Source: a virus. Taken from it: a DNA stretch of 41,487 nt. Position numbers and translations under genes: made by a program. Positions 1,903 to 39,055 of this stretch are shown here, in pieces. A model generated the notes under the pieces. The model had not been told where the DNA came from, did no database searches, and was given only the letters and a program-made list of their open reading frames with translations. The stretch is from positions 1-41,487 of the IMG/VR virus record IMGVR_UViG_3300020123_000352. One strand, 5' to 3'. Every line of letters begins with the position of its first letter. The first letter of the stretch is position 1.

Positions 1903-4119
1903 CTATAGCACAGGTGCGCCACCGGGAACGGGCGGCGGCGGGCCACCAGCAAATACACTACTTGGCGTAGGTGCTGGCATAGGCATTGGGCCGGGCCCGG
2001 GCATACCGTTCATCGGGGGCATTGCACCACCAATGGGCGGCTGAGGTGGCATTGCACCAGCTGGGGGCATTTGTGGTGGCATCGCGCCGGGCGGCGGTGG
2101 CATACCGGGCATTGCAGGCATACCAGCACCGGGCGGCGGCACTGCGGGGTTAGGTAGCGGCGTACCGGGCTTTAAACCTTCAGCAGTCGGGCCACCGATA
2201 GCACTGGCCTCTTCAAGTGCCAAGCGCTCTTCGAGTGAATCAATGCACTTAGTAACGTACTTTATGAAGCGGTTTTGGTCAGATTTCTTGGCCTTTAAGA
2301 AGGTGTCGTTAATCATGAGCTTGCGCAGTGACAGTATGTATTCTTTGCTCGGATTCTCTTTTTCTTCGACTGGTTTGCCATTCATGATATCTTCGAAGGC
2401 CACATATGCTTCAGACTCATCAATAACATCGAGAGCATCGCGGGCAAGTGCCATCGGGTCGGCACTCTGCTTGGCCCAGTTGTCGTAAAGCTGCTGCGCG
2501 TTATCCAGTTGCAGAATCTTGTAGGCATCGAGCAAGCTAATTGCCTTCTCTTTAAGCAGTGCCAGTACGATGGCTTCGATGCGGCTGCGGTCAGGGTTGG
2601 CAGGCTTGCTAGCTTTGACTATTAACCCCTGTGGTACTAGGTCGCGCTTCAGAGTAACGGCATCTATTTCACCGTCACCGGCATCGTACAAAAAGCTGTG
2701 GTTTTCGGTGTACCACACTACGGCCATTTGCACCCAATACTGGTAGGCTTGGCCAATCATACGGGTCATGGCCCGCACCATCATGTCTTGGCGCCCGGCG
2801 GCCTGGTTCTTTTTAATCATCACTTCGCCAAGCGTGGGGTCACCATCGTCGGCCTGTGAGCCCGTAAAGTCGGTTGGCGCACCCATGAGGTTGCCAATTT
2901 GCATACGAGCATCGAGCTTGTCGGCCATCACGTACTGCGGCAGCACTTGGGCTTGCAATTGCATCACCAGCTGGTCGAGGTTTTTGCCGTCTTCATTTTC
3001 GACAAACAGCTTTTGGTTCGGGTCACCGGTAATGTTCTGGCCATCGTCTTTAGTGAGCCCTGAACTGGTACCAATCACCAGTATGCCGTTGGCGTGGTCG
3101 GCGTTTTCGGCAATCTGGCGGCCACGGCGCATGAGGTAGAGCTGCATTTCGGCAGCCTGCTCGAGCGGCGTGGTGTTATCGATTACGTGGGTACCGTAGT
3201 TCACGAGGTTACCAAAGATGTACGGCTTCTTGGGGTATTTCAGCAGGTTCAGCTCTTTTTTGGCATACAGATAGTTCGGGTTGCGCATCTTCTCGAGCAC
3301 GATGTTGTCGAAATACCACACTACACCCTCTTGGGGCTTGTTGCTCTTATCGTAGTGGGTGACCGATACCTTGCGCACGGCAATCTCGCGGGTCATCTGT
3401 TTGGGTGTGCGGCGCTGAATGCCAAGCTTGCTCAGTATTTCCTCTTCGCGCTTCGGGAATTCATTAATTAACTCTTCTGGCGTGCGCTTAAGCACATGGC
3501 AGATAAAGCCGGGATTCTTGCCAAGCGCCGCGTTCTTGTCGAGTATGACATGCTCAGGGTCTACGTGCTCGAGCACAATTTCATCTAGCTCTTTATCGTA
3601 ATAAAAGTGGCCGATAGCCACCCGCTTGTTTAGAATGTCACGCGCCCACAGCTCTACCAATGCTTCGAGGTGCACAAAGTCGAGCACATCACCGTTAAAA
3701 TAACACTTTACAGCCTTTTCGACGTTGGTGGCATACACTTTGTCACGCGCTTCTTTGCTCGGGGAAAGCACCAACGGCCCGGCAATCTGGTTGGTGACGT
3801 AGGCTACAATCGACTCTTCGCCAACAAATACTTGGTTTTCTTTGTACTGCTTCTGGTGCTTATAGAGCCCGGTTTCGTCAACTTTGCCAAGGTGCATTCG
3901 GGTGTTCTGAGCCCGCTGGTTCTTGAGGTCGAAACCCTTGGCATCATTCCAGTAGGCCTCACTGTCATTAATCCTGAAATTCAGATTGCGAATAATGTCG
4001 CGGTCTGGCATATCAAGCGACAACGCCGGTAGGCGGTCTATTTCGCCCGGCTGGTCTACGAAGTTATCGACATTGGTATTGTCAAGAATGGGTGCCGCGC
4101 GGTTGTATTCCAGTGCCAT
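1903..4119 (-). CDS. Portal protein
   Basis: 738 residues, in the size range of podovirus portals. The protein forms the dodecameric vertex ring through which DNA enters and leaves. Support: it lies between terminase and the scaffold-like gene, is long with mixed alpha/beta composition, and has a C-terminal helical domain followed by a tail from about residue 650 made almost wholly of Pro, Gly, Met and Ala. The segment around GEVMIKKNQAAGRQDMMVRAM, with a long helix after it, fits a portal stem/wing region. The low-complexity tail is unusual and might protrude inside the capsid. Family assignment is by context and general resemblance. Confidence 0.82.
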   Translation of the reverse strand: MALEYNRAAPILDNTNVDNFVDQPGEIDRLPALSLDMPDRDIIRNLNFRINDSEAYWNDAKGFDLKNQRAQNTRMHLGKVDETGLYKHQKQYKENQVFVGEESIVAYVTNQIAGPLVLSPSKEARDKVYATNVEKAVKCYFNGDVLDFVHLEALVELWARDILNKRVAIGHFYYDKELDEIVLEHVDPEHVILDKNAALGKNPGFICHVLKRTPEELINEFPKREEEILSKLGIQRRTPKQMTREIAVRKVSVTHYDKSNKPQEGVVWYFDNIVLEKMRNPNYLYAKKELNLLKYPKKPYIFGNLVNYGTHVIDNTTPLEQAAEMQLYLMRRGRQIAENADHANGILVIGTSSGLTKDDGQNITGDPNQKLFVENEDGKNLDQLVMQLQAQVLPQYVMADKLDARMQIGNLMGAPTDFTGSQADDGDPTLGEVMIKKNQAAGRQDMMVRAMTRMIGQAYQYWVQMAVVWYTENHSFLYDAGDGEIDAVTLKRDLVPQGLIVKASKPANPDRSRIEAIVLALLKEKAISLLDAYKILQLDNAQQLYDNWAKQSADPMALARDALDVIDESEAYVAFEDIMNGKPVEEKENPSKEYILSLRKLMINDTFLKAKKSDQNRFIKYVTKCIDSLEERLALEEASAIGGPTAEGLKPGTPLPNPAVPPPGAGMPAMPGMPPPPGAMPPQMPPAGAMPPQPPIGGAMPPMNGMPGPGPMPMPAPTPSSVFAGGPPPPVPGGAPVL

Positions 4120-4188: not shown

Positions 4189-4443
4189 CTATTTCTGATA
4201 AAGGATTTTGAATATTGACTTGCAGCTGTGGCACTTGTGCTCAGTGAATTGGCTGCCTGGCTCGAGCGCTTGGAAGCTGGCGCCGTAAGCGTTGCTCAGC
4301 AGCATTTGCTTGGAGTTATGCCGGAACACGATACGGCCACAACGCGGGCAGCGGAAGGGCAGCAGCTCAGTGACCGGGCTTTGGCTGGCGTAAATGTACA
4401 CTACGAATTCCATGCTGCCTGTTGTGTTATTCATCGCCTGCAC
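4189..4443 (-). CDS. Com-like zinc-ribbon protein
   Basis: 84 residues with two CxxC pairs, C32/C35 (CPRCGR) and C71/C74 (CHSCK), separated by 35 residues, which together would bind one zinc ion. The pattern CPRC-G-R-hydrophobic-FR resembles the zinc finger of phage Mu Com, a translational activator that binds mRNA, but similarity is confined to the ribbon. The start overlaps the end of the large terminase gene by 17 bases, and Met4 (4434) is an alternative start. It lies between terminase and portal. A role in RNA or DNA binding is inferred. Confidence 0.75.
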   Translation of the reverse strand: MQAMNNTTGSMEFVVYIYASQSPVTELLPFRCPRCGRIVFRHNSKQMLLSNAYGASFQALEPGSQFTEHKCHSCKSIFKILYQK

Positions 4444-6073
4444 TTTCTCTTATTGCTTTTGCTAAGTTTATCGGATTGCCAACTGTTTGGCCATTATCGA
4501 CCATAAACGGTTTATTTGATACCTCACTTGGCCGCAAGGTCTGCACCACTCCGGGGCCAAGCTGCTCATTCGGCACTTTGAAGTTGACGGCCAAGTACTC
4601 GGTCGCGGTACGCGGGTGGCTTGTCCAGTTGTGAATCGGCAAGCTAACCGGCGTAATCGACTGGCTGGTGGCCTCACGCTGCGGAAAGCTAGCTTGGTCA
4701 ATGGCGTCGAGATACCCATTGAGGCCGGTAGTGCCAGGCGTGTCGTTCACCTCAATGCCCTTCTGAAACAGCGTCTTGGTGGCTTGCCATCGGTTGTAGA
4801 AAGCATTGCCCTTCACATTGGTCTGCACATAAATGCCAACCTTCACCAGCTCAGCCCGCACACTGGTCAGCACTTTGCTAGTCATGCTGCGCTTGGCGGC
4901 ATCAGGGTCACCGTAATGCTTGCCGTTCTTGAACCAGTTGACCCGGTAAATAGCTTCGACCTCTTTAGGGTCGTAGCTGAACAGGCTATCTATGTCCATT
5001 GGGCCAGTGCCCTGCTCATTCGGAAAGAAGGGAAAAAACCACTGTATTGGCACATTCTCTTTACATAGGGCATCGACCAGGCGCATCTTGCCGTTATCCA
5101 TGTTGTACTGCCACCACTGCGCCGCGGTACCGTCCAGCCCAAAATCCCACGACACGAATAGCGGCCACTCCGGGTTATATGGAAACTTACCCACTTGGCG
5201 CCGCCGGGCTTCGGGGTAGACCACACCTTTAAGCGAACCTTCCCAGTCAATCATGATTTCGCGAGCAAAGTCTTCTTTGCTGCGGCGCTCCCGCTGGTCG
5301 GCTAACCACTCAGGAGTTTTGCGCGGGTCGAGGTGGTGCGGCAGCTCTATTACCTTAATCTTTTCGCCGTCTTCACCGAAGCGCAGGCGCTTGGCCTTGG
5401 TACCGGGCCGAATGCCGGGCGTGGTGATGACTATGCGGCAGTTGGTGGTGTCGGCCGTACTACCCCACGCGGCATCATCGTTATCCCAGAAAGCAAACTC
5501 ATCGAGCAATATGGCCTTCTGGCGTCCACCACGGCTGAAGTTCGGGTTGCTTGATTCACCACTGATGGCGTTACCAAGCTCAGGATTCAGCAGCTTCATG
5601 CTCGAGCGGTGCACATTGAAGCTGAAGCCCTTGGGTAGCACCAGCGGGTTCAGCCGGGTAAGCATGTAGTCGAGCTTGCCAAAAAGCGACTCTTCTTTGT
5701 TGCTGATTTCGTCGCCACCCTTGCTACCGCCCACGTTGTCTACGTAGTCTTCTTTGCGCGACCCCAGTAAGAAGTTGGAAGCGTCGCGGTATTTCCAGTA
5801 CCACAGCAGCACACCAAGCACAGTGTAGCTCACGCCCATTTCTCGGGTTTTGTCAAAGAAGATGTCGTAGCCCATTTCAATGGCCTGCACTAATTCATTG
5901 ATGATGCGAGTCTCTTGGAATGGGAACAGCTTAAAGGGGAAATGGTACGGCGCCCGCTTGGGGTCTAACGTCCAAAGCATCGTATTAAAAAACAATACCG
6001 GGTCTTGGCTACAATCGTAATCGAGCTTTAGCAGTCTAGCCTTGGCAATCTCTAAATCACTGAAGGTGCTCAC
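4427..6073 (-). CDS. Terminase large subunit (packaging ATPase/nuclease)
   Basis: 548 residues. The motor pumps DNA into the prohead and cuts it. Visible motifs: adenine-binding region FPFQ (about 50-53), atypical Walker A KTREMGVSYT (75-84), Walker B ILLDEF (188-193), coupling motif ITTPG (216-220), and an RNase H-like nuclease domain opening with FVSWDFG (D310) and closing with acidic residues near LDAID about 90 residues from the C-terminus. Length and order are normal for TerL. The start overlaps the preceding small gene by four bases. It is followed by the zinc-ribbon and portal genes, the classic packaging order. Confidence 0.95.
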   Translation of the reverse strand: MSTFSDLEIAKARLLKLDYDCSQDPVLFFNTMLWTLDPKRAPYHFPFKLFPFQETRIINELVQAIEMGYDIFFDKTREMGVSYTVLGVLLWYWKYRDASNFLLGSRKEDYVDNVGGSKGGDEISNKEESLFGKLDYMLTRLNPLVLPKGFSFNVHRSSMKLLNPELGNAISGESSNPNFSRGGRQKAILLDEFAFWDNDDAAWGSTADTTNCRIVITTPGIRPGTKAKRLRFGEDGEKIKVIELPHHLDPRKTPEWLADQRERRSKEDFAREIMIDWEGSLKGVVYPEARRRQVGKFPYNPEWPLFVSWDFGLDGTAAQWWQYNMDNGKMRLVDALCKENVPIQWFFPFFPNEQGTGPMDIDSLFSYDPKEVEAIYRVNWFKNGKHYGDPDAAKRSMTSKVLTSVRAELVKVGIYVQTNVKGNAFYNRWQATKTLFQKGIEVNDTPGTTGLNGYLDAIDQASFPQREATSQSITPVSLPIHNWTSHPRTATEYLAVNFKVPNEQLGPGVVQTLRPSEVSNKPFMVDNGQTVGNPINLAKAIRESAGDE

Positions 6074-6377: not shown

Positions 6378-6992
6378 TTATGCAGTTGATGGTGTTTTTT
6401 CGGCATTCTTGGCTTCTTCGGCCTTTTCAGCCTCAGCACGGGCTAGTATGGCATTGATTTCTTCGATGCTCATACCCCGGCCAATCTCTATTTTTTCACC
6501 GTCGGTGGTCAAGTCCATCTTATCACCGTAAATCTTTGGCTTCATTTTGGCCATCAAGAACTTGCGGGTATCAATCTGTAAACGGCGATGGCCAAGCATA
6601 TCATCTTCGCGCACCTCTGTTACAGTGACTTCATTACCGTCTTTATCCTTGCTGGTGCGCGTGACCGTGACCTTCCCCTTGGTCGGAGTATTCGAAATGT
6701 CCAATATCTCTTCGGCCATTGCATCGGCAGCTTCTTGCTTCGCGCGCGTGTATTGGTGTAAAAAGTCGTCGCGCCACAACTCTTCATTCGATTCGGACAG
6801 CCATAAGAACACAGTTTTAACAGACGGCATACCTTTACGAGCACATGCGGTACGCAAACTTTCACCCATGGCCAGATAGCCACACAGCTCAGTAGCCAAC
6901 TCAAGGCTGTAAATTGTAGGGCGCCCCATTTTTTTAGGGGTCTTTGGAGTCTTGGCTTGCTGGCCTACTACGGGCTCTTTGCTTTTCACCAT
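6378..6992 (-). CDS. Terminase small subunit
   Basis: 204 residues from the ATG at 6992. A longer frame begins with TTG at 7031 but adds an unlikely leader. An N-terminal basic region is followed by a helix-turn-helix of the terminase small subunit type: GRPTIYS, then a helix with LATELCGYLAMGESLRTAC and the recognition segment GMPSVKTVFLWL. A helical middle (QEAADAMAEEILDI) and an acidic Ala/Glu C-terminal tail follow. It recognises the packaging site and hands DNA to TerL. It is located one small gene upstream of TerL, as expected. Confidence 0.9.
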   Translation of the reverse strand: MVKSKEPVVGQQAKTPKTPKKMGRPTIYSLELATELCGYLAMGESLRTACARKGMPSVKTVFLWLSESNEELWRDDFLHQYTRAKQEAADAMAEEILDISNTPTKGKVTVTRTSKDKDGNEVTVTEVREDDMLGHRRLQIDTRKFLMAKMKPKIYGDKMDLTTDGEKIEIGRGMSIEEINAILARAEAEKAEEAKNAEKTPSTA

Positions 6993-7044
6993 ATTGCCTA
7001 AGTTATACCATAACCGTAAGCATGGTGGCAATTTGCCGCCCCCT

Positions 7045-8294: not shown

Positions 8295-8390
8295 TGGAGC
8301 CGGGGGTTGGCAGCGAGCCAACTAGTCAAGCGTGTACTTTGCCTGTCCGTGCTTATGAGGCACGCGCTTTTCTATTTGCATATCCCCAGC
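8295..8390 (-). tRNA. tRNA-like element with CAT anticodon loop and long variable arm, possibly degenerate
   Basis: Minus strand, 5' end 8390. A 7-bp acceptor stem, GCTGGGG (8390-8384) with CCCCGGC (8305-8299), one G-T pair. A perfect 5-bp anticodon stem CGTGC/GCACG around the 7-base loop CTCATAA (T33, anticodon CAT). A perfect 5-bp stem GTTGG/CCAAC around a 7-base loop in T-arm position. Encoded CCA at 8297-8295. Against a normal tRNA: the D-arm does not pair, the T-loop lacks TTCRA, and the variable region is 25 nt (CAGGC/GCTTG can pair), as in class II tRNAs. It begins 6 bases after the neighbouring tRNA-Met, as in a tandem array. Confidence 0.45.
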
Positions 8391-8396
8391 AAGATT

Positions 8397-8474
8397 TGGT
8401 AGCGGGGGCCGGATTTGAACCGGCGTCCGTGAGTTTATGAGGCTCACCATCTAACCAACTGATTGTACCCCGCG
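8397..8474 (-). tRNA. tRNA-Met (CAT), CCA encoded
   Basis: Minus strand, 5' end 8474. Acceptor CGCGGGG pairs with CCCCGCT except at the first pair (C-T mismatch). The D-loop contains GTTGGTTA, the anticodon loop CTCATAA gives anticodon CAT, and the T-arm GCCGG-TTCAAAT-CCGGC is perfect. Discriminator A and CCA are encoded (8400-8397). The mismatch at 1-72 and an A11-T24 pair are initiator-like, but the anticodon stem lacks the three G-C pairs of initiators and has a C-A mismatch at the loop-closing pair. Elongator Met, initiator or Ile (modified CAT) cannot be separated by eye. Confidence 0.85.
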
Positions 8475-12539: not shown

Positions 12540-12797
12540 ATGAGTAGATTTAATCGCAAGGGCTGGAAAACTGTAAGGGGCAAAAAGCCCGATGGCACCA
12601 TTGCCCCCTTCCCCGTCAAAGTCGGTGGCTACCATGACCGCGCAAATAAAAAAGCTGTGGCCAAACTCAAAAAAGAACGCCAGAAATCTTTTAGAGAATA
12701 CAAGCAGAATCTTAAAGAGGCCAAAAAACGTATACCACTTTCTGAACGCTCTAAAATCAAATTGAGCGCAGTGCCCGAAAGGTACTTAGACCAATGA
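12540..12797 (+). CDS. Small Lys-rich protein
   Basis: 85 residues from ATG 12540 (MSRFNRKGWK), very basic, with a long helix (KKAVAKLKKERQKSFREYKQ). It looks able to bind nucleic acid. It overlaps the ATPase gene start by four bases. A 14-codon frame (12499-12543) overlaps its start and may serve translational coupling. Confidence 0.75.
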   Translation: MSRFNRKGWKTVRGKKPDGTIAPFPVKVGGYHDRANKKAVAKLKKERQKSFREYKQNLKEAKKRIPLSERSKIKLSAVPERYLDQ

Positions 12798-14473
12798 GCC
12801 TAAGAATAGCCCCTAATCTCTCATTACCAGATGAAGCCGTGACGCAGACTTTTGCCATTCTAGCAAAACGCGGCGTCGGCAAAACCTACACCGCTAGCGT
12901 CATGGTAGAAGAAATGCTTAAGTCGAACCTGCACGTTATCGTTATCGACCCTATCGGTGTCTGGTGGGGCCTACGCGCCGCCGCTAATGGCAAAGATGCC
13001 GGGCTACAGATTATCATTGCAGGCGGTGACCACGCCGATATACCCCTAGAGCCATCAGCCGGAGAAAAACTAGCTGAGCTCGTAGTAGAAAACCGGCTGT
13101 CCATAGTGCTCGACTTATCCTTATTCCGTAAAAATGAGCAGGTAAAATTCATGACAGATTTTGCCGAAACACTATATCGAAAGAACCGCAACGCAGTACA
13201 TGTGGTACTCGATGAAGCTGACGCCTTCGCGCCGCAGCGCCCCATGCCTAACGAAAACCGTATGCTTGGCGCCATCGAAGATATCGTGCGTCGGGGCCGG
13301 GCACGTGGTATTGGCGTCACCATGATTACACAGCGCCCATCGGTATTAAATAAGAATGTGCTAACCCAAATTGAGGTGTTGGTTGCCCTGCGGCTTACCG
13401 CCCCACTCGACCAAAAGGCTATCGACGAATGGATAAAGACCCATGCCGAAGAAGGCCAGCGCGAACAGTTTATGACTTCGCTTCCCTCTTTGCCAATCGG
13501 TACGGCTTGGTTCTGGTCACCGGGTTGGCTCGATATATTTCGGAAAGTCAAAGTACGCACCCGGGAAACACTAGACTCTTCGAGTACCCCTAAAGTCGGC
13601 CAGCGTATACGTGAGCCGCAAAAACTAGCCGATGTCGATTTGGAAAAAATAAAAAAGCTGATTGCCGATACCGTCGAGCGCGTAGAGGGAAATGACCCAA
13701 AGGCTCTTAAGAAAAAGATTATCGAGCTCGAACGACAGCTAGCCACCAAGAAAACCGATACTATCATTACGCAAGTGGAAGTACTGCCAGCCGAAACCAA
13801 AAGAATAATTGAGGATATACGACTACAAGCAGTCGGTGTGCTCGAGCGGGTCGATAGAGCGCTTGCCTATTTCAACCAATTTTCCGCTGCCAACGATACT
13901 ATTTCCCAATTTAATAAGCCTATAAACTCTCATATAAATAAACCTACCCCTGTAAGCGCACCCAAAAAAGACCCACAAATACAAATAGACGATAATAAGC
14001 GCCTGCCCGCTGGGGCCAGTCGCATCTTGGGAGTACTGGCCGACCATTACCCTATGAGATTCACCCAAAGCCAGCTTGGGCGCCTATCAAAATTCACGCC
14101 TTCGGGCGGTACGTTTAAAAACTACTTCGGCTCTCTTAAGCGATATGGCTACATCGAAGACACAGACGGCGAAATAAGCATCACTGATACCGGTTTCGAA
14201 TATCTTGGCACTACACCCCCACCAGCCCCCAGCAAAGAGCAAATTATTGATATGTGGCGTAATGCCCTACGTGCAGGTGAACAGCGCATATTTGATGAGC
14301 TGCTTGGTGTCTACCCGCATAGCCTCAGTGCCGAAGAGTTGGGTGACCGTACCGGATTTACCGCAACCGGCGGCACCTTCAAAAACTATGTAGGTGCATT
14401 GAAGCGAAATAAACTTGTTGAAAATATCGGTACCAGTATCAAAATAAGCGACAATCTTATGGGAATAGCTTAA
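12794..14473 (+). CDS. HerA/FtsK-type ATPase with two C-terminal winged-helix repeats
   Basis: 559 residues. Walker A AKRGVGKT (24-31), Walker B VVLDEAD (137-143) and a sensor/arginine region RRGRARGIGVTMITQRP (166-182) match the HerA (DUF87) DNA-translocase family. A coiled-coil linker (about 290-350) leads to two similar winged helix-turn-helix domains, about 415-475 and 490-555, sharing GGTFKNY plus G-LKR. Likely a DNA translocase or helicase that binds DNA through its tail. As the only helicase-like gene seen, it may serve replication, but recombination or chromosome handling are equally possible. Confidence 0.85.
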   Translation: MSLRIAPNLSLPDEAVTQTFAILAKRGVGKTYTASVMVEEMLKSNLHVIVIDPIGVWWGLRAAANGKDAGLQIIIAGGDHADIPLEPSAGEKLAELVVENRLSIVLDLSLFRKNEQVKFMTDFAETLYRKNRNAVHVVLDEADAFAPQRPMPNENRMLGAIEDIVRRGRARGIGVTMITQRPSVLNKNVLTQIEVLVALRLTAPLDQKAIDEWIKTHAEEGQREQFMTSLPSLPIGTAWFWSPGWLDIFRKVKVRTRETLDSSSTPKVGQRIREPQKLADVDLEKIKKLIADTVERVEGNDPKALKKKIIELERQLATKKTDTIITQVEVLPAETKRIIEDIRLQAVGVLERVDRALAYFNQFSAANDTISQFNKPINSHINKPTPVSAPKKDPQIQIDDNKRLPAGASRILGVLADHYPMRFTQSQLGRLSKFTPSGGTFKNYFGSLKRYGYIEDTDGEISITDTGFEYLGTTPPPAPSKEQIIDMWRNALRAGEQRIFDELLGVYPHSLSAEELGDRTGFTATGGTFKNYVGALKRNKLVENIGTSIKISDNLMGIA

Positions 14474-14676: not shown

Positions 14677-14819
14677 GTGACGAATTTCTAAAAGCAGTCG
14701 AAGAAGCCGACACTCCGTTACAAAACTTTGCCGTCCTAATTGTCTTTTTCCCCTATATCATTTGGATACTCATACGCACATTTTTGATTAGGCTAGGACT
14801 CTACAAATATGGCAAGTAA
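14673..14819 (+). CDS. Small single-pass membrane protein
   Basis: 48 residues from the ATG in an ATGA overlap with the gene before. An acidic N-terminus (MSDEFLKAVEEAD) is followed by a hydrophobic helix (FAVLIVFFPYIIWILI) and a basic C-terminus. It ends 11 bases inside the next gene. Function unknown. Confidence 0.68.
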   Translation: MSDEFLKAVEEADTPLQNFAVLIVFFPYIIWILIRTFLIRLGLYKYGK

Positions 14820-15009
14820 ACGCTACCACCCACCCGAACGGATTGCCGACCACCCGATGATAAAGCAGGCCTTTCGAGTCATGGGTGCCGTGCTCATTGC
14901 CACCAAGGCCAAAGACCTTGAAGCCGATTTTGTCATGAGTGACGAAAGTGGTACTAGCGTTCACCAGTTCCATGTTGAGATAACAGAGGTAGAGGTAAAA
15001 AAATCATGA
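14809..15009 (+). CDS. Small hypothetical protein
   Basis: 66 residues with a basic N-terminus (MASKRYHPPERIADHP), then a helix and beta strands (HQFHVEITEVEVKK). It overlaps both neighbours (11 and 4 bases), which supports it as a real gene. No family is recognised. Confidence 0.7.
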   Translation: MASKRYHPPERIADHPMIKQAFRVMGAVLIATKAKDLEADFVMSDESGTSVHQFHVEITEVEVKKS

Positions 15010-15332
15010 ATTATAGCGACCGTGTATTACAAGTCACCCAAGATGCTATAACACCATATGTAATCGAACAAATCGCCGGTAAGTTTGCCCGACGCAAGCA
15101 TGAGGCTTGGCGCAACTCAAAAGAGTATGCTACCGCACTGCACGAGGCCTTTGCTATGAACTGGCGCAAGACCGGCAAGTTGCCCTTGACTGACAAGCGT
15201 ACCCGTGGCTACAGGCACCTCAATAAAGCCTACGATAAATTTATGGCGATGTACGTAAAGGAAAATCCCGAACGGCCCGAAGAACGCCGGGTTGATATGT
15301 TTGGCAAATTATCAGGTATCAGGCCAGTATAA
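15006..15332 (+). CDS. Basic helical hypothetical protein
   Basis: 108 residues, helical, with many Lys, Arg and aromatic residues (GKFARRKHEAWRNSKEYATALHE) and no recognisable motif. It overlaps the preceding gene by four bases and shares its final base with the glycosyltransferase start. Function unknown. Confidence 0.72.
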   Translation: MNYSDRVLQVTQDAITPYVIEQIAGKFARRKHEAWRNSKEYATALHEAFAMNWRKTGKLPLTDKRTRGYRHLNKAYDKFMAMYVKENPERPEERRVDMFGKLSGIRPV

Positions 15333-16510
15333 TGAGCATCATAGAACCGCTATCAGCTTACGGCATACTGGCCCTTTCTCGTATCGGTATGCAGGTTGCA
15401 ACGTCAGCGGCCGAGCGCAAACGCAAGGTGCCAGAAGCCGCCTACCCCGCCGCCAGTCTGATAGTGCCAACCTATAACGAGCCCATTGATGTGTTCGCGG
15501 TAGCCATTAAGAGCTGGAAAAACATAGATTATCCCGACCTTGAAGTGGTTATTGTCGATGATGGCAGCGCCAACCGTGCCGAACTAAAACGCTACAGTGA
15601 GCACTACGGCTTCACCTATGTTTACCAGCCAAATGCCGGTAAACGTGAGGCTATGTATGCCGGTCTGCAACATATCCGGCCAGAATCAAAAGTAGTGTTC
15701 ATGAGCGATAGCGATACGGTTTGGCATAAGGCAGCTGCAAAACGCCTAGTCGATACCCTTTACGCAGACAACAAGACAGCGGCGGTAACCGGTGAAGTAG
15801 CAATTAAAAATTATGATGTCAATCTGATTACCCGCTTAGTGTCCATGCGCTACCATATGGCCTTTGCCTATGAGCGGGCCAGCCAATCGTACTTTAAAAC
15901 CGTAACGTGCATCAGCGGGCCCCTTGGTGCCTACCGCCGCAAGGTCATTGACCATGTAAAAGAAGATTTTATTAATCAGACGTTTATGGGTAAGAAGTGT
16001 ACTTACGGCGACGACCGGCACCTAACGAATCTGGTACTGGCAACCGGCTATAAAGTGCGTTACTCACCACAGGCCAAGTGCTACACTCAGGCACCTACCG
16101 AATTCAAAGCGCTGCTCAAACAACAGACAAGGTGGGGTAAGTCATACTGGCGGGAACTATTTTGGCAAATTAAGACTATTCCCAAACATGGCCTTTACCT
16201 TGCTTACGACTTTATGATTACCGCCCTACTTCCAATAATCTTGGTCGGCTCAATGGCCCACGATGTATATTTGGCGTTCTTTGGCCACCCAATCTATGCG
16301 CTCAGGCTTCTTACCACTATGGTATTCGTTACCCTGCTACGGATAATCGACCCGATGCTGCGGCAAAAGAATCTGTGGTTTATACTATTCGTAATTTACA
16401 CCCTCATATACTTTTTGGTCTTGTTGCCCGTAAAGATTTATGCCCTGTTCACCATGACGCGCGGCGGTTGGGGCAGCCGCAAAATAGTGGCAGAAACGGC
16501 ACGAAGGTAA
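15332..16510 (+). CDS. Hyaluronan-synthase-like family 2 glycosyltransferase
   Basis: 392 residues. Motifs in order: PTYNE (46-50), DDGS (76-79), DSDT (126-129), SGPLGAYRR (195-203), GDDRHLTN (226-233), QQTRW (264-268) and WGSR (380-383), the full set of processive GT2 enzymes, with spacing and flanking residues closest to bacterial hyaluronan synthases. Three C-terminal membrane segments follow (about 290-318, 321-340, 349-372). The N-terminal membrane segments of standard synthases are missing or reduced, and the length is slightly short. Probably uses UDP-sugars at the membrane to make or alter a surface glycan. The product cannot be told from sequence. Confidence 0.88.
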   Translation: MSIIEPLSAYGILALSRIGMQVATSAAERKRKVPEAAYPAASLIVPTYNEPIDVFAVAIKSWKNIDYPDLEVVIVDDGSANRAELKRYSEHYGFTYVYQPNAGKREAMYAGLQHIRPESKVVFMSDSDTVWHKAAAKRLVDTLYADNKTAAVTGEVAIKNYDVNLITRLVSMRYHMAFAYERASQSYFKTVTCISGPLGAYRRKVIDHVKEDFINQTFMGKKCTYGDDRHLTNLVLATGYKVRYSPQAKCYTQAPTEFKALLKQQTRWGKSYWRELFWQIKTIPKHGLYLAYDFMITALLPIILVGSMAHDVYLAFFGHPIYALRLLTTMVFVTLLRIIDPMLRQKNLWFILFVIYTLIYFLVLLPVKIYALFTMTRGGWGSRKIVAETARR

Positions 16511-16522
16511 TACACTGTGCTT

Positions 16523-16720
16523 ATGTTATTCCGTCGAAAGAAACAATGGCAGCCCGAACTTCCCGAAATCCATGAGTACACGCTAGACCTGCAACGCATC
16601 ACCATGCTACGCGACAAGAGCCAAGACGCCAAAGAAAAACGCGGCTATGATGATTGCATTCACGTAATGCAAGAGGTTCTTATTTTCCTGAACACTGAGC
16701 CCGGCAAGCAAAATACCTAA
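16523..16720 (+). CDS. Small hypothetical protein after the glycosyltransferase
   Basis: 65 residues from ATG 16523 (MLFRRKKQWQPE). An upstream GTG at 16517 would add two residues. It is mainly helical (LQRITMLRDKSQDAKEKRGYDDCI). No motif is recognised. Confidence 0.65.
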   Translation: MLFRRKKQWQPELPEIHEYTLDLQRITMLRDKSQDAKEKRGYDDCIHVMQEVLIFLNTEPGKQNT

Positions 16721-21175: not shown

Positions 21176-22717
21176 TTATTTTGTTTTTTTGTTTCGTAGG
21201 AACTTAGGTATTATATCATCTAAAAATTTTAGACCATTGATTTCTATGTGCGACTTTGCTAGTACTGCTGCATCTTTGACAACTGTTGCCTTGCTAACAG
21301 GGGTAGTAACCTCACCCGGGGCCACCAGCAGGTTAGGGGTGCGCGTGTTGGCGTCGACCTTCGGTACACAATACCAAAAATCAAAGTTTACATCGGTGGC
21401 AATCTTGAGCCGGTAGTACTCGACACCATCTTTGGTGACTGTACCATAGGCCGCAACCATACCAAGTTTGCTATTGGTACCCGGTATGTAACGGGGAAGC
21501 GGCAAATCGGGTTCTTTACCGTTCAGGTCGTTCACTGTCATGTCGCGGGTGGCGATGTAGTGTATGGCCTTTACGAAGGGCTTGTAGCTGTCGTGCCAGT
21601 CTTCGGGGGAATCGGGTACAGTTGGGGCAGGGGTATCGGCTGGCAGGGCAGGCGGCCTAGTTTCAGACAGGTCGGCAATGCCAAAACCATACTGATTGAC
21701 GACATCACCAGTATTACGGAAGTTGCCAAAATCGGCGTCGACCATTAGGTAGGTAGCGCCGACCGGGGGAATCGGGTGTTTTGCTTGGCCAACAATAAAT
21801 ACTTCGGCCCCGTAGTCGAGATGCTGCACGCTCTTGAAATCACGCCAGTTGGTAATGCCCTTGAATGACCACTTTTCTGCACCACCGACTCTGTTGACAT
21901 ACATAACCTTCGGGGCACCATCTATAGTGCTGAAGGTGATACCGTCAACCTTGTTACTGGTGTAAGTCTTCGTTTCAGGTACGGGCGCGGCAACTGGGGT
22001 AGGGGGTGTAAAGTCATCACAATCTAAGACATTGAAGCCGTCAATCTGCCCTTCGCGCCGGTAGTAGTCCATGCCATCTTCGTGGTGCACCTTATTCGTG
22101 ACCGTCCATATTTCGCCCGCGTTGTGAGTTTCTACCGGGTGGTCGACCATATAGGCAAAAGCATAATTCATACCCCACAGATGCGTTGGCTGCTTGTTTA
22201 GCTTCACCTGTTTGCCATTCGGGTAGGTTTCGACAACGGCATACCGCGCCTGCGCCCTGGCGGTAGTAATCGGCTGCGCGGCAGCATTCGTGTAGCTAGC
22301 GTATGCCACGGGGCCACCGTAGGCATTCCAGCTCTTTGTCACTCCGTCCCAGCTGTCTATGATAGTACCGAGCCCGGCGTTGGCCACTAAACAAAAATGG
22401 GTCTTACCCCCATCATAAACGAACTTGACAATGGAATTATCATCGGTGGGTGAACCGCTGCCCTGAGCGGTGATGCGCACACTGCCGTCGAAAGCCGTGA
22501 TGCTGCTGAATGCTAGCAGGTCTTTGGTACCATCTTTCTCATAGATGTAGGTGTTGTGGTCGATAAAAAACTGATTGAGTGCGGCAGGGTCTTCGGTGAT
22601 ACCGAAGCGCTGAAGCAAGTTACTGAATGAGGTTACGAAACAACCAGCCGCCGCAATACTTACGGCCTTTGGGCCCGTACCCATCTTTTGCGGGTACTTT
22701 GTCTGTGCGTATGGCAT
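21176..22717 (-). CDS. Endolysin with N-terminal C39-like cysteine peptidase domain
   Basis: 513 residues. The N-terminal 130 residues fit a C39-like papain-fold peptidase: AAAGCFVTSFSNLL (catalytic C26), THFCLVAN (H107) and DSWDG (D121 or D124). The remainder consists of beta-rich modules separated by Pro-rich linkers (about 245 and 350-365) that may bind the cell wall. It should cut peptide bonds of peptidoglycan. The start overlaps nothing and has AAGGAA upstream. It lies in a cassette with the holin-like gene. Confidence 0.82.
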   Translation of the reverse strand: MPYAQTKYPQKMGTGPKAVSIAAAGCFVTSFSNLLQRFGITEDPAALNQFFIDHNTYIYEKDGTKDLLAFSSITAFDGSVRITAQGSGSPTDDNSIVKFVYDGGKTHFCLVANAGLGTIIDSWDGVTKSWNAYGGPVAYASYTNAAAQPITTARAQARYAVVETYPNGKQVKLNKQPTHLWGMNYAFAYMVDHPVETHNAGEIWTVTNKVHHEDGMDYYRREGQIDGFNVLDCDDFTPPTPVAAPVPETKTYTSNKVDGITFSTIDGAPKVMYVNRVGGAEKWSFKGITNWRDFKSVQHLDYGAEVFIVGQAKHPIPPVGATYLMVDADFGNFRNTGDVVNQYGFGIADLSETRPPALPADTPAPTVPDSPEDWHDSYKPFVKAIHYIATRDMTVNDLNGKEPDLPLPRYIPGTNSKLGMVAAYGTVTKDGVEYYRLKIATDVNFDFWYCVPKVDANTRTPNLLVAPGEVTTPVSKATVVKDAAVLAKSHIEINGLKFLDDIIPKFLRNKKTK

Positions 22718-23003: not shown

Positions 23004-23315
23004 ATGAGTAAACCAGAGCCAGTAATAGGCCTATACCCTCTCAACGATTGCGTATTGGTCGACCTAAAACAATCCAGCAAAAATTTCTCGAGAAAAGAAG
23101 GCAAGTATGATAGCCGCACCGAAGGCATTGTTGTTGCCATAGCCAATTATAAGAACCCCGAGTCCGTCAACATCACTATGGATTTAAAAGTGCAAGACCT
23201 GCTTGGAAAGCGGGTGCACTTCGAAGAGTTTAAAGAAGGTGCCCGCATTAAGCGTGATGGCAAGATATACAGTTTTATAAAAATTGAAGACATACGGGGG
23301 TACGAGAATGAGTAA
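23004..23315 (+). CDS. groES: Co-chaperonin GroES
   Basis: 103 residues. Conserved features: PLNDCVLVDL near the N-terminus, a mobile-loop stretch (KQSSKNFSRKEGKYDSR), EGIVVAI, GKRVHFEEFKEGARIKRDGKIY and the C-terminal IEDIRGYE. It forms the lid of the chaperonin chamber. It overlaps groEL by 8 bases. No strong Shine-Dalgarno is seen before ATG 23004, and the promoter on this strand is unclear (TATACT at 22976-22981 without a -35). Confidence 0.9.
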   Translation: MSKPEPVIGLYPLNDCVLVDLKQSSKNFSRKEGKYDSRTEGIVVAIANYKNPESVNITMDLKVQDLLGKRVHFEEFKEGARIKRDGKIYSFIKIEDIRGYENE

Positions 23316-24858
23316 GCTGACCAAAGACGTTATTTTTGATGATGAGTTGCACGTAAAAATTGCCCGGGGGCTCGACATCGCTTACAACGTCGCCAAGGCC
23401 AGTTTCGGCCCGAACGCCGGTAACGCTATCATCGAATACCCTTACGGTGACCCGCTGATTAGCCGCGACGGCGTGACCAACCTGCGCAAGCTTATACTCG
23501 AAGACGCCATAGAAAATGCCGCGGTGCAGGTCGTGGTGCAGGCTAGCAAGCACAATGACCAGTCGGTTGGTGACGGTACCACCGGCTCAGTTATCCTCGG
23601 CTACCACATGTACAAAGCGGGCCGTAAGCTGATAGCCGCCGGGCAGAACCCGATGGTAGTCAGCCGATTAATTACTGAAGCCGGTAATAAAGCGGTCGAA
23701 CAGATAGACACCCTCAAAAAACCACTCAGCGCCAAAAACATTGGCCTGCGCCTGATAGACGTTGCCACCACTTCGGCCGGTGACGCTGCCATTGGTGCGC
23801 TAGTAGCCGAAACCGTCGAGGCTGTAGGCGCAGATGGTGGCGTGACGCTCGAAGATTTTGCCGGGCGCGGCGTGTGGAATGAAATTGTAGAGGGCTTTTA
23901 CTTCCGCAAGGGGTTGGTAAGCGCCTACCTAGCCAAAGACCCCACCAATCTCGAAAGCAAACACTACAAGGCCCCTATCCTGATTCTCGACAAACAGCTG
24001 AGCGAACAGAATGAAGCCGCCGAGCTTATGGAGCGCATCATCAACGGCGGCCTGAAAGAATTGGTCATTGTGGGTTCAGTGGGCGGCGATGCGCTGGCTT
24101 TTATCGTGCAGCTGCGGCTTAGTAACAAATTGACCGTAAGCATCGTAGACGCGCCGTATGACGCCCGTAGCCTGTTTCTCGAAGACCTAGCCCTAATGAC
24201 CGACGCCACAGTGATTACCGAAGGCTTTGACGTTAATGAATTTTCGGTAGAACAGCTAGGCTTTGCCGAAAAAACGGTTATCACCACCAGCGGCACCACC
24301 ATACTTGGCGCCGATGGCCAAGCCGACAAGATTGCCAAACGGGTAAAAGAGCTGCAAAAACAGCTCGAAGAAGCTAGCAGCCCGGTAGATATCGAAATGA
24401 TACGCCTGCGCTTGTCGCGTCTGACTGGTAAAGTCGCTATAATTCGCGTGGGCGGTGCTACTGAAACCGAGCAAAAAGAAGTCAAACTACGTGTACAAGA
24501 TGCAGTTGGCGCCGCGCAAGCAGCTTTAAAAGAAGGTATTTTGCCCGGGGGCGGTACGACACTGGCCCGGCTAGATGTGGGATTCAAAGAGGCGTTTGAG
24601 GCGCCGTTCTTGCAGCTGGCAGCCAACAGTGGTGTAAACCCTGAGCGGCTACTATTCCAGCTGCAAGACGCGCCCGAAGGCTACGGCTTCGACCTACGCA
24701 ACATCGGTGATAAACCGATAGACCTTATCAAAGCGGGTGTCATCGACCCGGCACTTGTTGTTAAAGAAATCATATTGAATGCCGCTAGCGTTGCAGCTAA
24801 ACTGCTTACCACTAGCTCAGGCATTACTCTTAAAAATCGAGATGAAAAGCATGATTGA
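23308..24858 (+). CDS. groEL: Chaperonin GroEL, full-length
   Basis: 516 residues from ATG 23308 (GGGGG upstream; the frame also opens at 23284). ATP site: FGP (33-35), SRDGVT (52-57), GDGTT (88-92, with D89 equivalent to E. coli D87), D398 in RVQDAV and PGGGTT (413-418). The apical domain is intact, with KGLVSAYL replacing the GYLSPYF segment and PYDARS replacing GFGDRR. The C-terminus GVIDPALVVKEIILNAASVA is typical, but there is no GGM tail. All catalytic residues are present, so it should be an active ATPase. Probably folds virion proteins such as the capsid protein. Confidence 0.95.
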   Translation: MSKLTKDVIFDDELHVKIARGLDIAYNVAKASFGPNAGNAIIEYPYGDPLISRDGVTNLRKLILEDAIENAAVQVVVQASKHNDQSVGDGTTGSVILGYHMYKAGRKLIAAGQNPMVVSRLITEAGNKAVEQIDTLKKPLSAKNIGLRLIDVATTSAGDAAIGALVAETVEAVGADGGVTLEDFAGRGVWNEIVEGFYFRKGLVSAYLAKDPTNLESKHYKAPILILDKQLSEQNEAAELMERIINGGLKELVIVGSVGGDALAFIVQLRLSNKLTVSIVDAPYDARSLFLEDLALMTDATVITEGFDVNEFSVEQLGFAEKTVITTSGTTILGADGQADKIAKRVKELQKQLEEASSPVDIEMIRLRLSRLTGKVAIIRVGGATETEQKEVKLRVQDAVGAAQAALKEGILPGGGTTLARLDVGFKEAFEAPFLQLAANSGVNPERLLFQLQDAPEGYGFDLRNIGDKPIDLIKAGVIDPALVVKEIILNAASVAAKLLTTSSGITLKNRDEKHD

Positions 24859-35211: not shown

Positions 35212-36525
35212 TTATGATTTGTCACCCCCGATTTGCTTCCATACGGTGTCGGTCTTATCTGTCGGGTTTTGCTGCCACGTAGTCGCATTCTTATTGGCGC
35301 CGTTTTGCCAAGTAGTTGAATTCTTGCTAGCGCCATTTCCCCACAGCGTAGCATTCTTGGCCGCAATGATATACGCCGCCACATTACCCATAAACACTTG
35401 CAACCAGTGGGTTGGTAGCTTGATCGGCCCCGGTAATATGGCACTCAGTATAGAACCAGAGGTACGGTAGGTGGCCGTCAGTAACTTACCAGCCGTGCGC
35501 GTCAACACTCCGGCGGTAGAAAATGTAGCCGTTAATGTCCGGTGCATGATCTTGTTGGCCACAAAGGTACCGGCGGCACTAAAGGTAGCAGTCAGGCGCC
35601 GGGTGGTAGACTTATTCAAATTACCCGATGTCAGGTACGTAGCGCTCAGCTGTCGACCAATACCACGACTGGTAAGATTGCCCGCTGTAGAGAAGGTAGC
35701 GGTAAATGTCTGGGTTTTGCCACCACTCTTTACCCCATTTAATGAACCTGAGCCAGAGAACACACCAGTAAGCAGCCGCGCCAGTGATTTTACAAGGCTA
35801 CCAGCACTCGAGAATGTGGCAGTTAGCGACTTATTTGTTTGCTTGGTCAGCTGGCCACTGGTTGAAAAAGTACCCGATACTGACTTACCCGGCCTGCGCG
35901 TCAGTGCGCCAGAAGCCACCAGCGTTGCGGTAAAGGCTACAATCGAGCTTTTGCGTGATAATGCACCACTGGTACTAAATGTGGCCGTAAAAACGCGCGA
36001 AACAAAGCGTACTAGGCTACCGGTAGTGCTAAATGTGGCCGTGAGCGTACGACCAATGGCGCGATTTGTGAGCTGGCCGGTAGCAATATAGGTGGCCGTC
36101 AGCAATTTGGTGGCACCGTGCGCAGTGGCAAGCACACCACTGGTGCTAAATGTCGCAGTGAAGGGCGTCTTGCTCGTGAACTTATTAAGCAGACCCAAGG
36201 CCGAAAACGTACCACTCAAATTATGACTCGTACTGCGATTGATTGCCCCACTGGTTGAAAAAGTTGCAGTGAGGAGGTGAGCTACCGCGCGGGCGATCAA
36301 CTGCCCGACAGTACTGAATGTTGCGGTAAAGGTACGCTGCTGCTGCTTAAGGAAAGCACCGCTACTAGAAAAGCTGGCACTTAATGGAACAGAGGTGGAT
36401 TTTACTAAAGCACCACTCGTTGAAAAAGTGGCGCTAAAATTCACCATGTAGTTGGTATTCCCGGCCCGTGGGGGGGCTTTGGATATCCAAGGGTGTATTG
36501 GGAACGCGCGGCCAAATCGTGCCAT
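35212..36525 (-). CDS. Repeat virion protein with 18 copies of a TATFSTSG-type motif
   Basis: 437 residues. Residues 29-363 hold 18 consecutive repeats of 18-22 residues with the consensus (L/F)TATFSTSG-x-L-x plus a basic, variable linker. Each could form a beta-strand pair, so a solenoid or a string of beta-hairpins is likely. The C-terminus holds four further repeats of 11-12 residues (pattern NxTxW...K, about residues 390-433) after a hydrophobic stretch. Located in the structural operon. Probably an elongated decoration or fibre protein. No family is recognised. Confidence 0.75.
   Translation of the reverse strand: MARFGRAFPIHPWISKAPPRAGNTNYMVNFSATFSTSGALVKSTSVPLSASFSSSGAFLKQQQRTFTATFSTVGQLIARAVAHLLTATFSTSGAINRSTSHNLSGTFSALGLLNKFTSKTPFTATFSTSGVLATAHGATKLLTATYIATGQLTNRAIGRTLTATFSTTGSLVRFVSRVFTATFSTSGALSRKSSIVAFTATLVASGALTRRPGKSVSGTFSTSGQLTKQTNKSLTATFSSAGSLVKSLARLLTGVFSGSGSLNGVKSGGKTQTFTATFSTAGNLTSRGIGRQLSATYLTSGNLNKSTTRRLTATFSAAGTFVANKIMHRTLTATFSTAGVLTRTAGKLLTATYRTSGSILSAILPGPIKLPTHWLQVFMGNVAAYIIAAKNATLWGNGASKNSTTWQNGANKNATTWQQNPTDKTDTVWKQIGGDKS
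35437..36441 (-). repeat. Coding repeat array, 18 units
   Basis: DNA encoding the 18 TATFSTSG-type repeats of the protein at 35212-36525, about 54-66 bp per unit. Copies have diverged at codon level, so the array is old or under selection at protein level. A second short array (35227-35358) encodes four NxTxW units. Confidence 0.75.
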
Positions 36526-37250
36526 TAGTATCTACTAGCCCTGTTTACTGCCTGTAGTATAGGCGCATTTGCCTTAGCTATGAAAGACCCCGCCGAAGCG
36601 GTTGTTTTTAACCCAGCAGTTAACTGAATATAAGTAACTCCCGTATTGGTCATACCAAACCCAGCAGTCGTACCCCCTGCGGCAGCCAATGCCTTGCTTT
36701 CCATACCACCACTAGTAAAGCTTGAGGCAGCATTCGATAGGTTACTGTAGCCAGTACCGGCCGAATAGGTGTTAGTTTGGCTTTGCAGCATCAAGATCGA
36801 CAATATAAGCTCATTGGTCTGCGTAGTGGTAAGTGTGCCGCTGTTGGTTGGGTTGGCGGTTGAGCCGGTATCAGTGCGCGAAACATCGAGGATTGAGCCA
36901 GAGGTAGCAAAGCCCGACCACTCCTGCGCAAATATTTGGCCGTCGATAAAGGTGGTGGCACCATTTTCTGTGGCCTGAACCTGATACACCGCGCCACTGT
37001 TCGCCGTAATATTCAAAGCGGCATACAGCAATATGGTGAGCGATGATGCGGTATAACTGGCAAGCAAATTGTAGGTATTATGCGGCGTAGCATTGTCAGA
37101 CAGGCTTACGGTGCCGCTGGCAACGTCCATACATATGCCGACTAGTAATGCATTTCCCGCCGTGCAAGCTGAACCAAAATTGCTCGTGAATAAGTTATTG
37201 TTCGAACCCGAAGAGTTGAAACCGGTAGTTGCTTGAACAAATGAAGCCAT
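36525..37250 (-). CDS. Beta-rich virion protein
   Basis: 241 residues, Ser/Thr/Gly/Ala-rich (IFAQEWSGFATSGSILDVSR, TTTQTNELILSILM). Composition suggests a jelly-roll-like decoration or fibre domain. It shares one base with the repeat-protein gene downstream. No family is assigned. Confidence 0.68.
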   Translation of the reverse strand: MASFVQATTGFNSSGSNNNLFTSNFGSACTAGNALLVGICMDVASGTVSLSDNATPHNTYNLLASYTASSLTILLYAALNITANSGAVYQVQATENGATTFIDGQIFAQEWSGFATSGSILDVSRTDTGSTANPTNSGTLTTTQTNELILSILMLQSQTNTYSAGTGYSNLSNAASSFTSGGMESKALAAAGGTTAGFGMTNTGVTYIQLTAGLKTTASAGSFIAKANAPILQAVNRASRY

Positions 37251-37251
37251 A

Positions 37252-37332
37252 TCACTTACGCCACCCCTTATATTCAGGGGCGGCTAAAGCGATAATGATT
37301 AGTATGACCACAGTGATAATTGCAGGAATCAT
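37252..37332 (-). CDS. Single-helix membrane miniprotein
   Basis: 26 residues: M, a hydrophobic helix (IPAIITVVILIIIALAAP) and a basic end EYKGWRK. It fills the gap between two virion genes almost exactly (9 bases after one, 1 before the next). No clear Shine-Dalgarno. The plan matches the miniproteins at 12423, 16873 and 25809. Confidence 0.5.
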   Translation of the reverse strand: MIPAIITVVILIIIALAAPEYKGWRK

Positions 37333-37341
37333 ACAATTATT

Positions 37342-37851
37342 TTATACTTCTACCACCATATAGCAATAGGCGTTTACTGCCGCACCCGCAGTCACACGAA
37401 TACGCGCAAATTTGCTTATCTGTATGATAGGCTCACGACCAAGCGGGAACTGCTTGATGTATTGGTTAGTTGGGGCGATCAACTGTACATCGAAGTTACG
37501 TACCGCCGTAATGGTACCCTCCGCAGTTGCGGTATACCCTGTAGATGTCGTACCCACCGGTATGAGGTTCGTAGTCGGGTCACCACCTGATAGAGCATTA
37601 GCATCAAGCTTGGTAATATCGTTTGCCGTGGAAGCCGTCACGGTAGCTGCTACGTCAGTTTCGATCAGTTCTACCTTAATCGGCGTAGCGGCAGCAGAAC
37701 CATCGAAGGAAATGCCCCACTCGACAATCTTAGCCACGATGGTTGCGCTCGGCTTAACCTGCAATAAGGTTTTAATTGATGTACCAGTAGTCACCGTTGC
37801 AAAAGCAGCGGTGGTCTGCATTGGGCCGTTAGCGATAAGATAGAGGGCCAT
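37342..37851 (-). CDS. Beta-rich structural protein
   Basis: 169 residues, beta-strand-rich with Thr/Ala/Val (TVTASTANDITKL, FARIRVTAGAAVNAYCYMVVEV). Located among the head genes after the capsid gene. Likely a capsid decoration or cement protein by composition and position. Not recognised. Confidence 0.68.
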   Translation of the reverse strand: MALYLIANGPMQTTAAFATVTTGTSIKTLLQVKPSATIVAKIVEWGISFDGSAAATPIKVELIETDVAATVTASTANDITKLDANALSGGDPTTNLIPVGTTSTGYTATAEGTITAVRNFDVQLIAPTNQYIKQFPLGREPIIQISKFARIRVTAGAAVNAYCYMVVEV

Positions 37852-37862
37852 GTGTAGCCCTC

Positions 37863-38792
37863 CTAGTTACCGCTGGCGATAGTCAGCTGATAGGTGAACT
37901 GAATCGTGTCACCACTTACCGTGTTAATAGCTGAGAAAACCTTGTGATCGTACATGACAGGACGCACGGTAAAGGCATCAGTAGAGCCCGGCGTAGTACC
38001 AGCCGTACCATCGGTCGACTTGTACCATGCAGGTACGGTCAATACAGAGGTAGTGTTGCTGGTAATCAAACCCCACACCTTTGGGCTGGCCGTGGTGTCT
38101 TCGACTACGTGCTGGGTCTTACCCTGTACGCTCGAGCTAGAAGCAGTGAATGGTGTACCGGTAGCAGTCAAGCTGGTAGCGCTTGAAGCGGTAGCCGGTG
38201 AACCAGTAGTGCTGGTTAAGGTGCTATCAGAGAACAAACCCCATTCAGTCACGGCTTCAGTACCATACCCCGTAAGGGTGGCAACAGTCTGAAGCTTCTG
38301 ACTGTTGGCGGCGCTAATCAGGCTTTGCGTACCGGCTACGGCTGAAACCGCGTCGGCAGTCTGCAAACCTACGTCGGTAGCGGCTGCGGCAGTCGTACCG
38401 GTGCCCGTGGCGTGCCAGTTGCAAATCTTAAGCGTGTTGATAGCCGTGGTCGGGTTTGGCCAGTTGAAATCATTGGCAGTCGCAAGGGCCGCCATGTTGG
38501 TAGTCAAACCAGAGCCAAGACTAATTTGGGTCTTGTTTCGATAGAGCAACCGGTACCACTCTTTCTGTAGACGGTTGTACACTCTCGCAAACAATGTGCT
38601 ACCAGCCTTACGGGTACCAAAATACTCATGGGGTGCACGTTCGCGCCCGTTCTTGTCGAATACCTTTACTAGCAGCTCAGACTCAAACTGCGCTTCGCCA
38701 TTGACCTGCGCACCAGAGGTAGCAGCACCGTGACGGTCTTGGGTAACGGCTATGGCCGTACCGAATAATGGAAGTCGAAAAATCTTACCCAT
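37863..38792 (-). CDS. Structural protein of head module
   Basis: 309 residues. The N-terminal 90 residues are charged and look globular (LLVKVFDKNGRERAPHEYFG, YNRLQKEWYRLLYRNK). The rest is Thr/Ser/Ala-rich beta sequence (TGSPATASSATSLTATGTPF). Shares a base with the upstream gene. A head-completion or decoration role is inferred from position. Confidence 0.68.
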   Translation of the reverse strand: MGKIFRLPLFGTAIAVTQDRHGAATSGAQVNGEAQFESELLVKVFDKNGRERAPHEYFGTRKAGSTLFARVYNRLQKEWYRLLYRNKTQISLGSGLTTNMAALATANDFNWPNPTTAINTLKICNWHATGTGTTAAAATDVGLQTADAVSAVAGTQSLISAANSQKLQTVATLTGYGTEAVTEWGLFSDSTLTSTTGSPATASSATSLTATGTPFTASSSSVQGKTQHVVEDTTASPKVWGLITSNTTSVLTVPAWYKSTDGTAGTTPGSTDAFTVRPVMYDHKVFSAINTVSGDTIQFTYQLTIASGN

Positions 38793-39055
38793 TACTGCTC
38801 CCCTTTCTGAGTGTCTAAGTTACCACCGGCGCTTGCAGCATCGGTGGTTTCTGGGTGTTTATCATAATCCCGACTCTTGCCATTCTCTTCTTCGTCGATG
38901 ACATCAACCAAGCCGGGGTAGTTTTGCAGGTTCACAGCAGGCGGAAATTCCCCTTGGAATGATATCCGCTGCCCGGCCAAGACAACGCCAAGGCCGGGAA
39001 TGTTGTAATCGCTGTCGCTATCGTTGCGGTAGACTCGAGTTTGCATATTACCCAT
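38792..39055 (-). CDS. Small acidic head-module protein
   Basis: 87 residues. An N-terminal beta region (TRVYRNDSDSDYNIPGLGVV) is followed by a disordered acidic tail. One-base overlap with the downstream gene. Function unknown. Confidence 0.68.
   Translation of the reverse strand: MGNMQTRVYRNDSDSDYNIPGLGVVLAGQRISFQGEFPPAVNLQNYPGLVDVIDEEENGKSRDYDKHPETTDAASAGGNLDTQKGEQ

Follow-up and report, generated by a model that had tools for sequence, protein, structure and literature searches.

Viral hyaluronan synthesis has so far been a chlorovirus curiosity, and its purpose is debated. The hyaluronan synthase (HAS) of Chlorella virus PBCV-1 (CvHAS, PDB 7SP6-9, 9YQ5) is a class I enzyme with a single GT2 domain, encoded by a virus that, unlike the phage described here, carries its own UDP-glucose dehydrogenase and GFAT, infects algae and is no tailed phage. 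The chlorovirus HAS is expressed early, and infected algal cells acquire a hyaluronan network (PMC5408694). The HAS residues that bind UDP, the metal, the GlcNAc acceptor and GlcA have been named from structures and mutagenesis (PMC11750622, PMC12987647), and R287 of the Xenopus enzyme XlHAS1 (PDB 8SMM/8SMN/8SMP) is reported to adjoin GlcA in the channel (PMC11750622). Patescibacteriota phages have been reported with other surface-modification genes (PMC12911398). In open-licence papers, literature searches for a hyaluronan synthase in phages led only to descriptions or citations of the chlorovirus work and to irrelevant items; the enzyme below is of a known kind, in a setting apparently unreported in that literature.

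The gene lies in a viral DNA of 41,487 nucleotides (IMG/VR record IMGVR_UViG_3300020123_000352), the whole of which is called the window. That the window is a phage is clear from its major head protein, portal and large and small terminase genes, listed here together with a GroEL gene:

1903-4119, reverse strand: portal protein, 35% to the TM7 phage (protein comparison)
4427-6073, reverse strand: large terminase subunit
6378-7031, reverse strand: small terminase subunit, Sf6-like
23284-24858, forward strand: phage GroEL, 34% to the TM7 phage GroEL (protein comparison)
40349-41437, reverse strand: major head protein, 58% to TM7 phage MG269973 (protein comparison)

The relative in question, DolZOral124_53_65 (MG269973), is the sole record of a TM7 (Saccharibacteria) phage, gives its host as candidate division TM7, and is by far the best match among phage records for head and portal. 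Several further structural genes also match it and the gene layout is similar, which places the window phage in the same lineage as a distant relative; MG269973 differs in having no GT2 of the HAS kind. Judged from this one relative, the host is likely to belong to Saccharibacteria, or at least to Patescibacteria. At the megablast level, the window DNA had no relatives in the phage collection. Elsewhere in the window are two side-by-side tRNA-Met (CAT) genes (8295-8474), a 559-aa HerA/FtsK-like ATPase (12794-14473) that PHROGs also ties to terminase-like proteins and for which the sister phages compared gave no match, and, near GroEL, a 513-aa protein (21176-22717) that matches a surface-layer protein domain (SlpA) below threshold. 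Five reverse-strand ORFs at 35212-39055 (437, 241, 169, 309 and 87 aa), almost matchless in the compared phages, are a possible tail or receptor-binding module.

The synthase gene is embedded among small ORFs:

14809-15009, forward strand: left flanking small ORF, 65% conserved at a site without the synthase in contig G007 (locus comparison)
15006-15332, forward strand: 108-aa ORF with no assigned function, its stop overlapping the synthase start (TAATG)
15332-16510, forward strand: HAS-type processive GT2, 392 aa (profile, structure-sequence, residue, tree and fold comparisons)
16517-16720, forward strand: right flanking small ORF, conserved in contigs G007 and G002 (locus comparison)

The synthase ORF is exact, with ATG at 15332, a stop at 16508-16510 and zero internal stops, and matches Pfam Glyco_tranf_2_3 (E=8.9e-26). 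The TAATG overlap suggests translational coupling to the 108-aa ORF, for which no homologue was found in the compared phages; the two close phage homologues, on contigs G001 and G002, also begin where a small upstream ORF ends. Within the synthase, the following features were located:

15347-15418, forward strand: single N-terminal helix (residues 6-29), equivalent to HAS TMH2, with the GLYG-type motif, here SAYG (AlphaFold model, XlHAS1/CvHAS profile alignment)
15473-15481, forward strand: YNE (48-50), the uracil/metal site, CvHAS Y91 and E93 (residue alignment)
15632-15643, forward strand: NAGK (101-104), K104 being CvHAS K177 (residue alignment)
15707-15715, forward strand: DxD (126-128) (residue alignment)
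15848-15877, forward strand: RYHMAFAYER (173-182), acceptor collar and GlcA-contacting arginines by alignment
15908-15910, forward strand: C193, the switch-loop cysteine, XlHAS1 C307 (residue alignment)
15998-16018, forward strand: priming-loop C223 and GDDR 226-229, in NodC S and GEDR (residue alignment)
16121-16153, forward strand: QQTRW 264-268, S271 and R274 (residue alignment)
16187-16450, forward strand: C-terminal interface and transmembrane helices, about residues 286-373 (hydropathy, AlphaFold model)
16469-16480, forward strand: gating loop WGSR (380-383), WGTR in HAS and WLSR in NodC (alignment; low model confidence)

The original prediction of a complete processive GT2 motif set holds, since all its elements fall in the 392-aa ORF (Y48/E50, K104, D126xD128, GDDR 226-229, Q264xxRW268 with R267 and W268, and W380GSR383), and the single GT2 domain with DxD, GDDR and QxxRW is that of a class I HAS. 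The active-site and channel residues of XlHAS1 (R287, Y288, F292, R296, C307, C337, W382 and S385) all have their counterparts, the first four aligning with R173, Y174, F178 and R182, as do CvHAS K177, R341 and R348. The gating loop reads WGSR in the window and G001 and WGTR in G002, which was scored as agreeing with W-G-T-(x)-R; the T-to-S replacement is a conservative change, although the serine, in a loop of low model confidence, counts as a point against a HAS and may affect gating.

Several lines of evidence place the synthase within the HAS family. Its five best matches among the sequences of solved structures are all hyaluronan synthases at E of about 1e-59, with 1.5e-59 for the Chlorella virus enzyme and 1.6e-57 for Xenopus HAS1. 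At 25 positions picked from HAS structure and mutagenesis papers before the comparison table was made, it agrees with CvHAS at 23 and XlHAS1 at 22, the references for these two being the stretches printed in solved-structure alignments and shorter than the full chains. Agreement is 24/25 with an Enterococcus plasmid enzyme (WP_002334573), 19-20/25 with seven NodC proteins and 11-13/25 with PgaC/IcaA. The profile for NodC (TIGR04242, NCBIfam) gives 226 bits over the whole length of the synthase and misses its equivalog cut-off of 550, that for PgaC (TIGR03937) gives 106 bits against a cut-off of 422, and that for cellulose synthase BcsA/CelA (TIGR03030) gives 36 bits against 699, over residues 11-82 only. 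In a maximum-likelihood tree of 25 rows, some on long branches and with streptococcal HasA left out, the three close phage proteins stand beside CvHAS, XlHAS1 and the viral protein of contig G003 with support of 94/98, slightly under the level at which the program stars a branch; all GDDR-bearing rows as one set received just 67/69.

The predicted fold gives the same order. An AlphaFold model built on a six-sequence alignment (pLDDT 84.4, pTM 0.85) matches solved HAS structures at Z 35.7-39.1, highest for CvHAS (39.1) and 35.7-36.6 for XlHAS1, the best covering 371 residues at an rmsd of 1.9 A; an archaeal mannosyltransferase (29.4), chitin synthase (25.9) and bacterial cellulose synthase BcsA (25.6) follow, and Foldseek agrees. 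The comparison with HAS and cellulose synthase structures proposed in the original prediction thus comes out at 35.7-39.1 versus 25.6, and its term "hyaluronan-synthase-like" is favoured by residues, phylogeny and fold alike, which together indicate a HAS type rather than a NodC, chitin, PgaC or cellulose synthase type. The full-length HAS fold, membrane helices included, is present in the model except for TMH1, which the model and profile alignment both lack; the reduced N-terminal membrane region that had been proposed is therefore seen as one predicted helix (6-29). The chain stops just past the gating loop, which is poorly resolved in the model, whereas the longer CvHAS, with constructs of about 570 residues, has more helices and vertebrate HAS has additional N-terminal and C-terminal transmembrane helices. 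By alignment, plasmid relatives of similar length from Enterococcus and Lactococcus, WP_002334573 among them, appear to have the same layout, with one N-terminal helix and an end at the gating loop, so the one-helix form is not unique to the phage. Among viral predicted structures, the first named tailed-phage entry stands at rank 12 (query TM-score 0.41), below giant-virus, algal-virus or nameless entries, the top one of which (570 residues) is probably CvHAS itself.

The rival that fares best, although we regard it as unlikely, is a NodC or chitin-type synthase that polymerizes GlcNAc only and would produce chito-oligosaccharides or a chitin-like coat. NodC shares the overall length and N-terminal layout of the synthase and about 29-33% identity, and its profile match spans the whole protein. 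UDP-GlcNAc is expected in any peptidoglycan-making host, and the supply of the second sugar also suits this reading: a search that was positive in the plasmid and in 13 of 14 control genomes found no UDP-glucose dehydrogenase family match in the window or in five further HAS-bearing viral contigs, so UDP-GlcA would need a host source. Chloroviruses, moreover, alternate HAS and chitin synthase (PMC5408694). On the other hand, R173, F178, C223, D227 and G381 are of HAS type where all seven NodC proteins have E, C, S, E and L, the modelled fold is nearer to HAS than to chitin synthases, and a clade of the window synthase with NodC was rejected by a tree topology test (p-AU 0.0027). The original prediction had named chitin-type closest relatives as what would overturn it; NodC is rejected as sister, and the nearest retrieved cellular homologues lie in a hasAB-like pair. 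As candidate identities, NodC, chitin, PgaC and cellulose synthases were set aside on the strength of residues, tree and curated cut-offs; for NodC, the GEDR and WLSR residues are missing and the two do not group.

Those nearest among the retrieved cellular homologues (39% identity, WP_002334573) come from Enterococcus and Lactococcus plasmids, where the HAS-type gene lies directly downstream of a nucleotide-sugar dehydrogenase gene, as in streptococcal hasAB, and carries the annotation "glycosyltransferase" only. The plasmid enzyme, known from sequence, thus differs from that of the phage in being bacterial and in having a precursor enzyme adjoining it. Such pairs lie near IS elements on Enterococcus faecium and Lactococcus plasmids (L014:6753-9170; L015:1105-3522; L074:1753-4170). 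A scan of genome contigs for a cellular donor with phage-specific patterns returned just a generic GT2 at 21% in a Heimdallarchaeote. The gene had been called rare in phages, and in a set of 50,697 annotated phage records no match exceeds 27% identity, the best (GX15bay) having 14 of the 25 HAS residues; in GX15bay (L017:5842-9625) the GT2 gene is followed by genes annotated as endoglucanase and mannanase. GDDR-type copies occur on five further IMG/VR contigs, namely G001 (65%), G002 (61%), G005 (37%), G004 (32%) and G003 (28%), and G001, G004 and G005 bear phage head, tail or replication genes. Contig G005 (L059:8947-12041) has additional glycosyltransferase-like genes besides its HAS-type gene. 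Contig G003 may not be a phage and is possibly a eukaryotic virus; its 539-aa HAS-type protein (L062:3576-5192, complement), with extra C-terminal helices, groups with Xenopus HAS1, and the gene lies near CAP and F5/8C domain genes.

The same comparisons bear on a second rival, namely a synthase derived from HAS but altered in specificity, whose product would be a different heteropolymer that is acidic or contains GlcNAc, built for example with some other uronic acid or hexosamine. The synthase shares only 33-39% identity with enzymes that are proven or hasAB-associated, and the three copies from phages group as a clade of their own on a long stem; nevertheless, the reported donor and acceptor sugar residues are nearly all unchanged, and we consider this reading quite unlikely.

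The synthase gene is accessory, being absent from near-complete sister phages. A related head protein occurs on 33 IMG/VR contigs, and a GT2 sought in 32 head-protein relatives, five of these contigs being longer than 34 kb, was found in none except G002. In G007, whose head protein is 93% identical, both flanking ORFs are kept, and a RusA resolvase (L063:1128-1460, complement), for which the window has no match, replaces the 108-aa ORF and the synthase. The G002 synthase lies at another place within the same variable region; the most similar synthase (65%) is that of G001, even though the backbone of G001 is largely different. Absence from sister phages, relocation in G002 and the G001 backbone fit horizontal movement of the gene among phages; no direct repeats of at least 10 bases flank the synthase as insertion marks. 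The large terminase (4427-6073) is 76% identical to that of G007 and has no match in G002, whose head protein is 96% identical, and a terminase swap is possible. Comparison of the three close phage copies gives saturation at synonymous sites (pS 0.80-0.85) and a pN of 0.23-0.24; because the two homologues, at 61-65% identity, retain every motif at this divergence, the gene is under purifying selection. That the synthase is a passenger gene with no function in infection, as its accessory status might allow, is very improbable given these preserved motifs, the overlap of its start with the upstream ORF in 3/3 phages and the close copy on a largely different backbone. The mobile accessory status, the probable Saccharibacteria host and the missing UDP-glucose dehydrogenase had escaped the original prediction.

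We therefore favour, with moderate confidence, a phage class I HAS-type enzyme that gives infected cells a hyaluronan-like surface polymer; for it, we infer the identity of the product, membrane extrusion and expression in infection. The synthase would be anchored in the membrane of the host, its GT-A domain lying in the cytosol, and, by analogy with known HAS enzymes, one active site would add GlcNAc and GlcA alternately from host UDP-sugars while the chain is extruded via the enzyme's own helices, so that infected cells would become coated with the polymer. Speculatively, the coat may hide receptors from competing phages or alter epibiont attachment; the roles raised in the original prediction, a glycan coat that blocks superinfection or a change of receptors, would likewise be speculative. 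Saccharibacteria are very small parasitic bacteria whose cells ride on those of other bacteria. A tentative extension, which we hold as possible but doubtful, is that tailed phages of Saccharibacteria with a mobile HAS gene produce a hyaluronan-coated epibiont whose UDP-GlcA is its own or scavenged from the bearer bacterium, the coat blocking rival phages or changing attachment to the bearer. A search of the open-licence literature turned up no paper on Saccharibacteria that names UDP-glucose 6-dehydrogenase.

That a compact and mobile gene of HAS type occurs on two or more tailed-phage backbones that differ for the most part, and on more distant ones, suggests that viral synthesis of surface polymers is a recurring strategy; the gene also offers a small enzyme for testing. 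If the host is a Saccharibacterium, the gene would additionally give one of the few concrete clues to phage-driven changes at the surface of obligate episymbionts.
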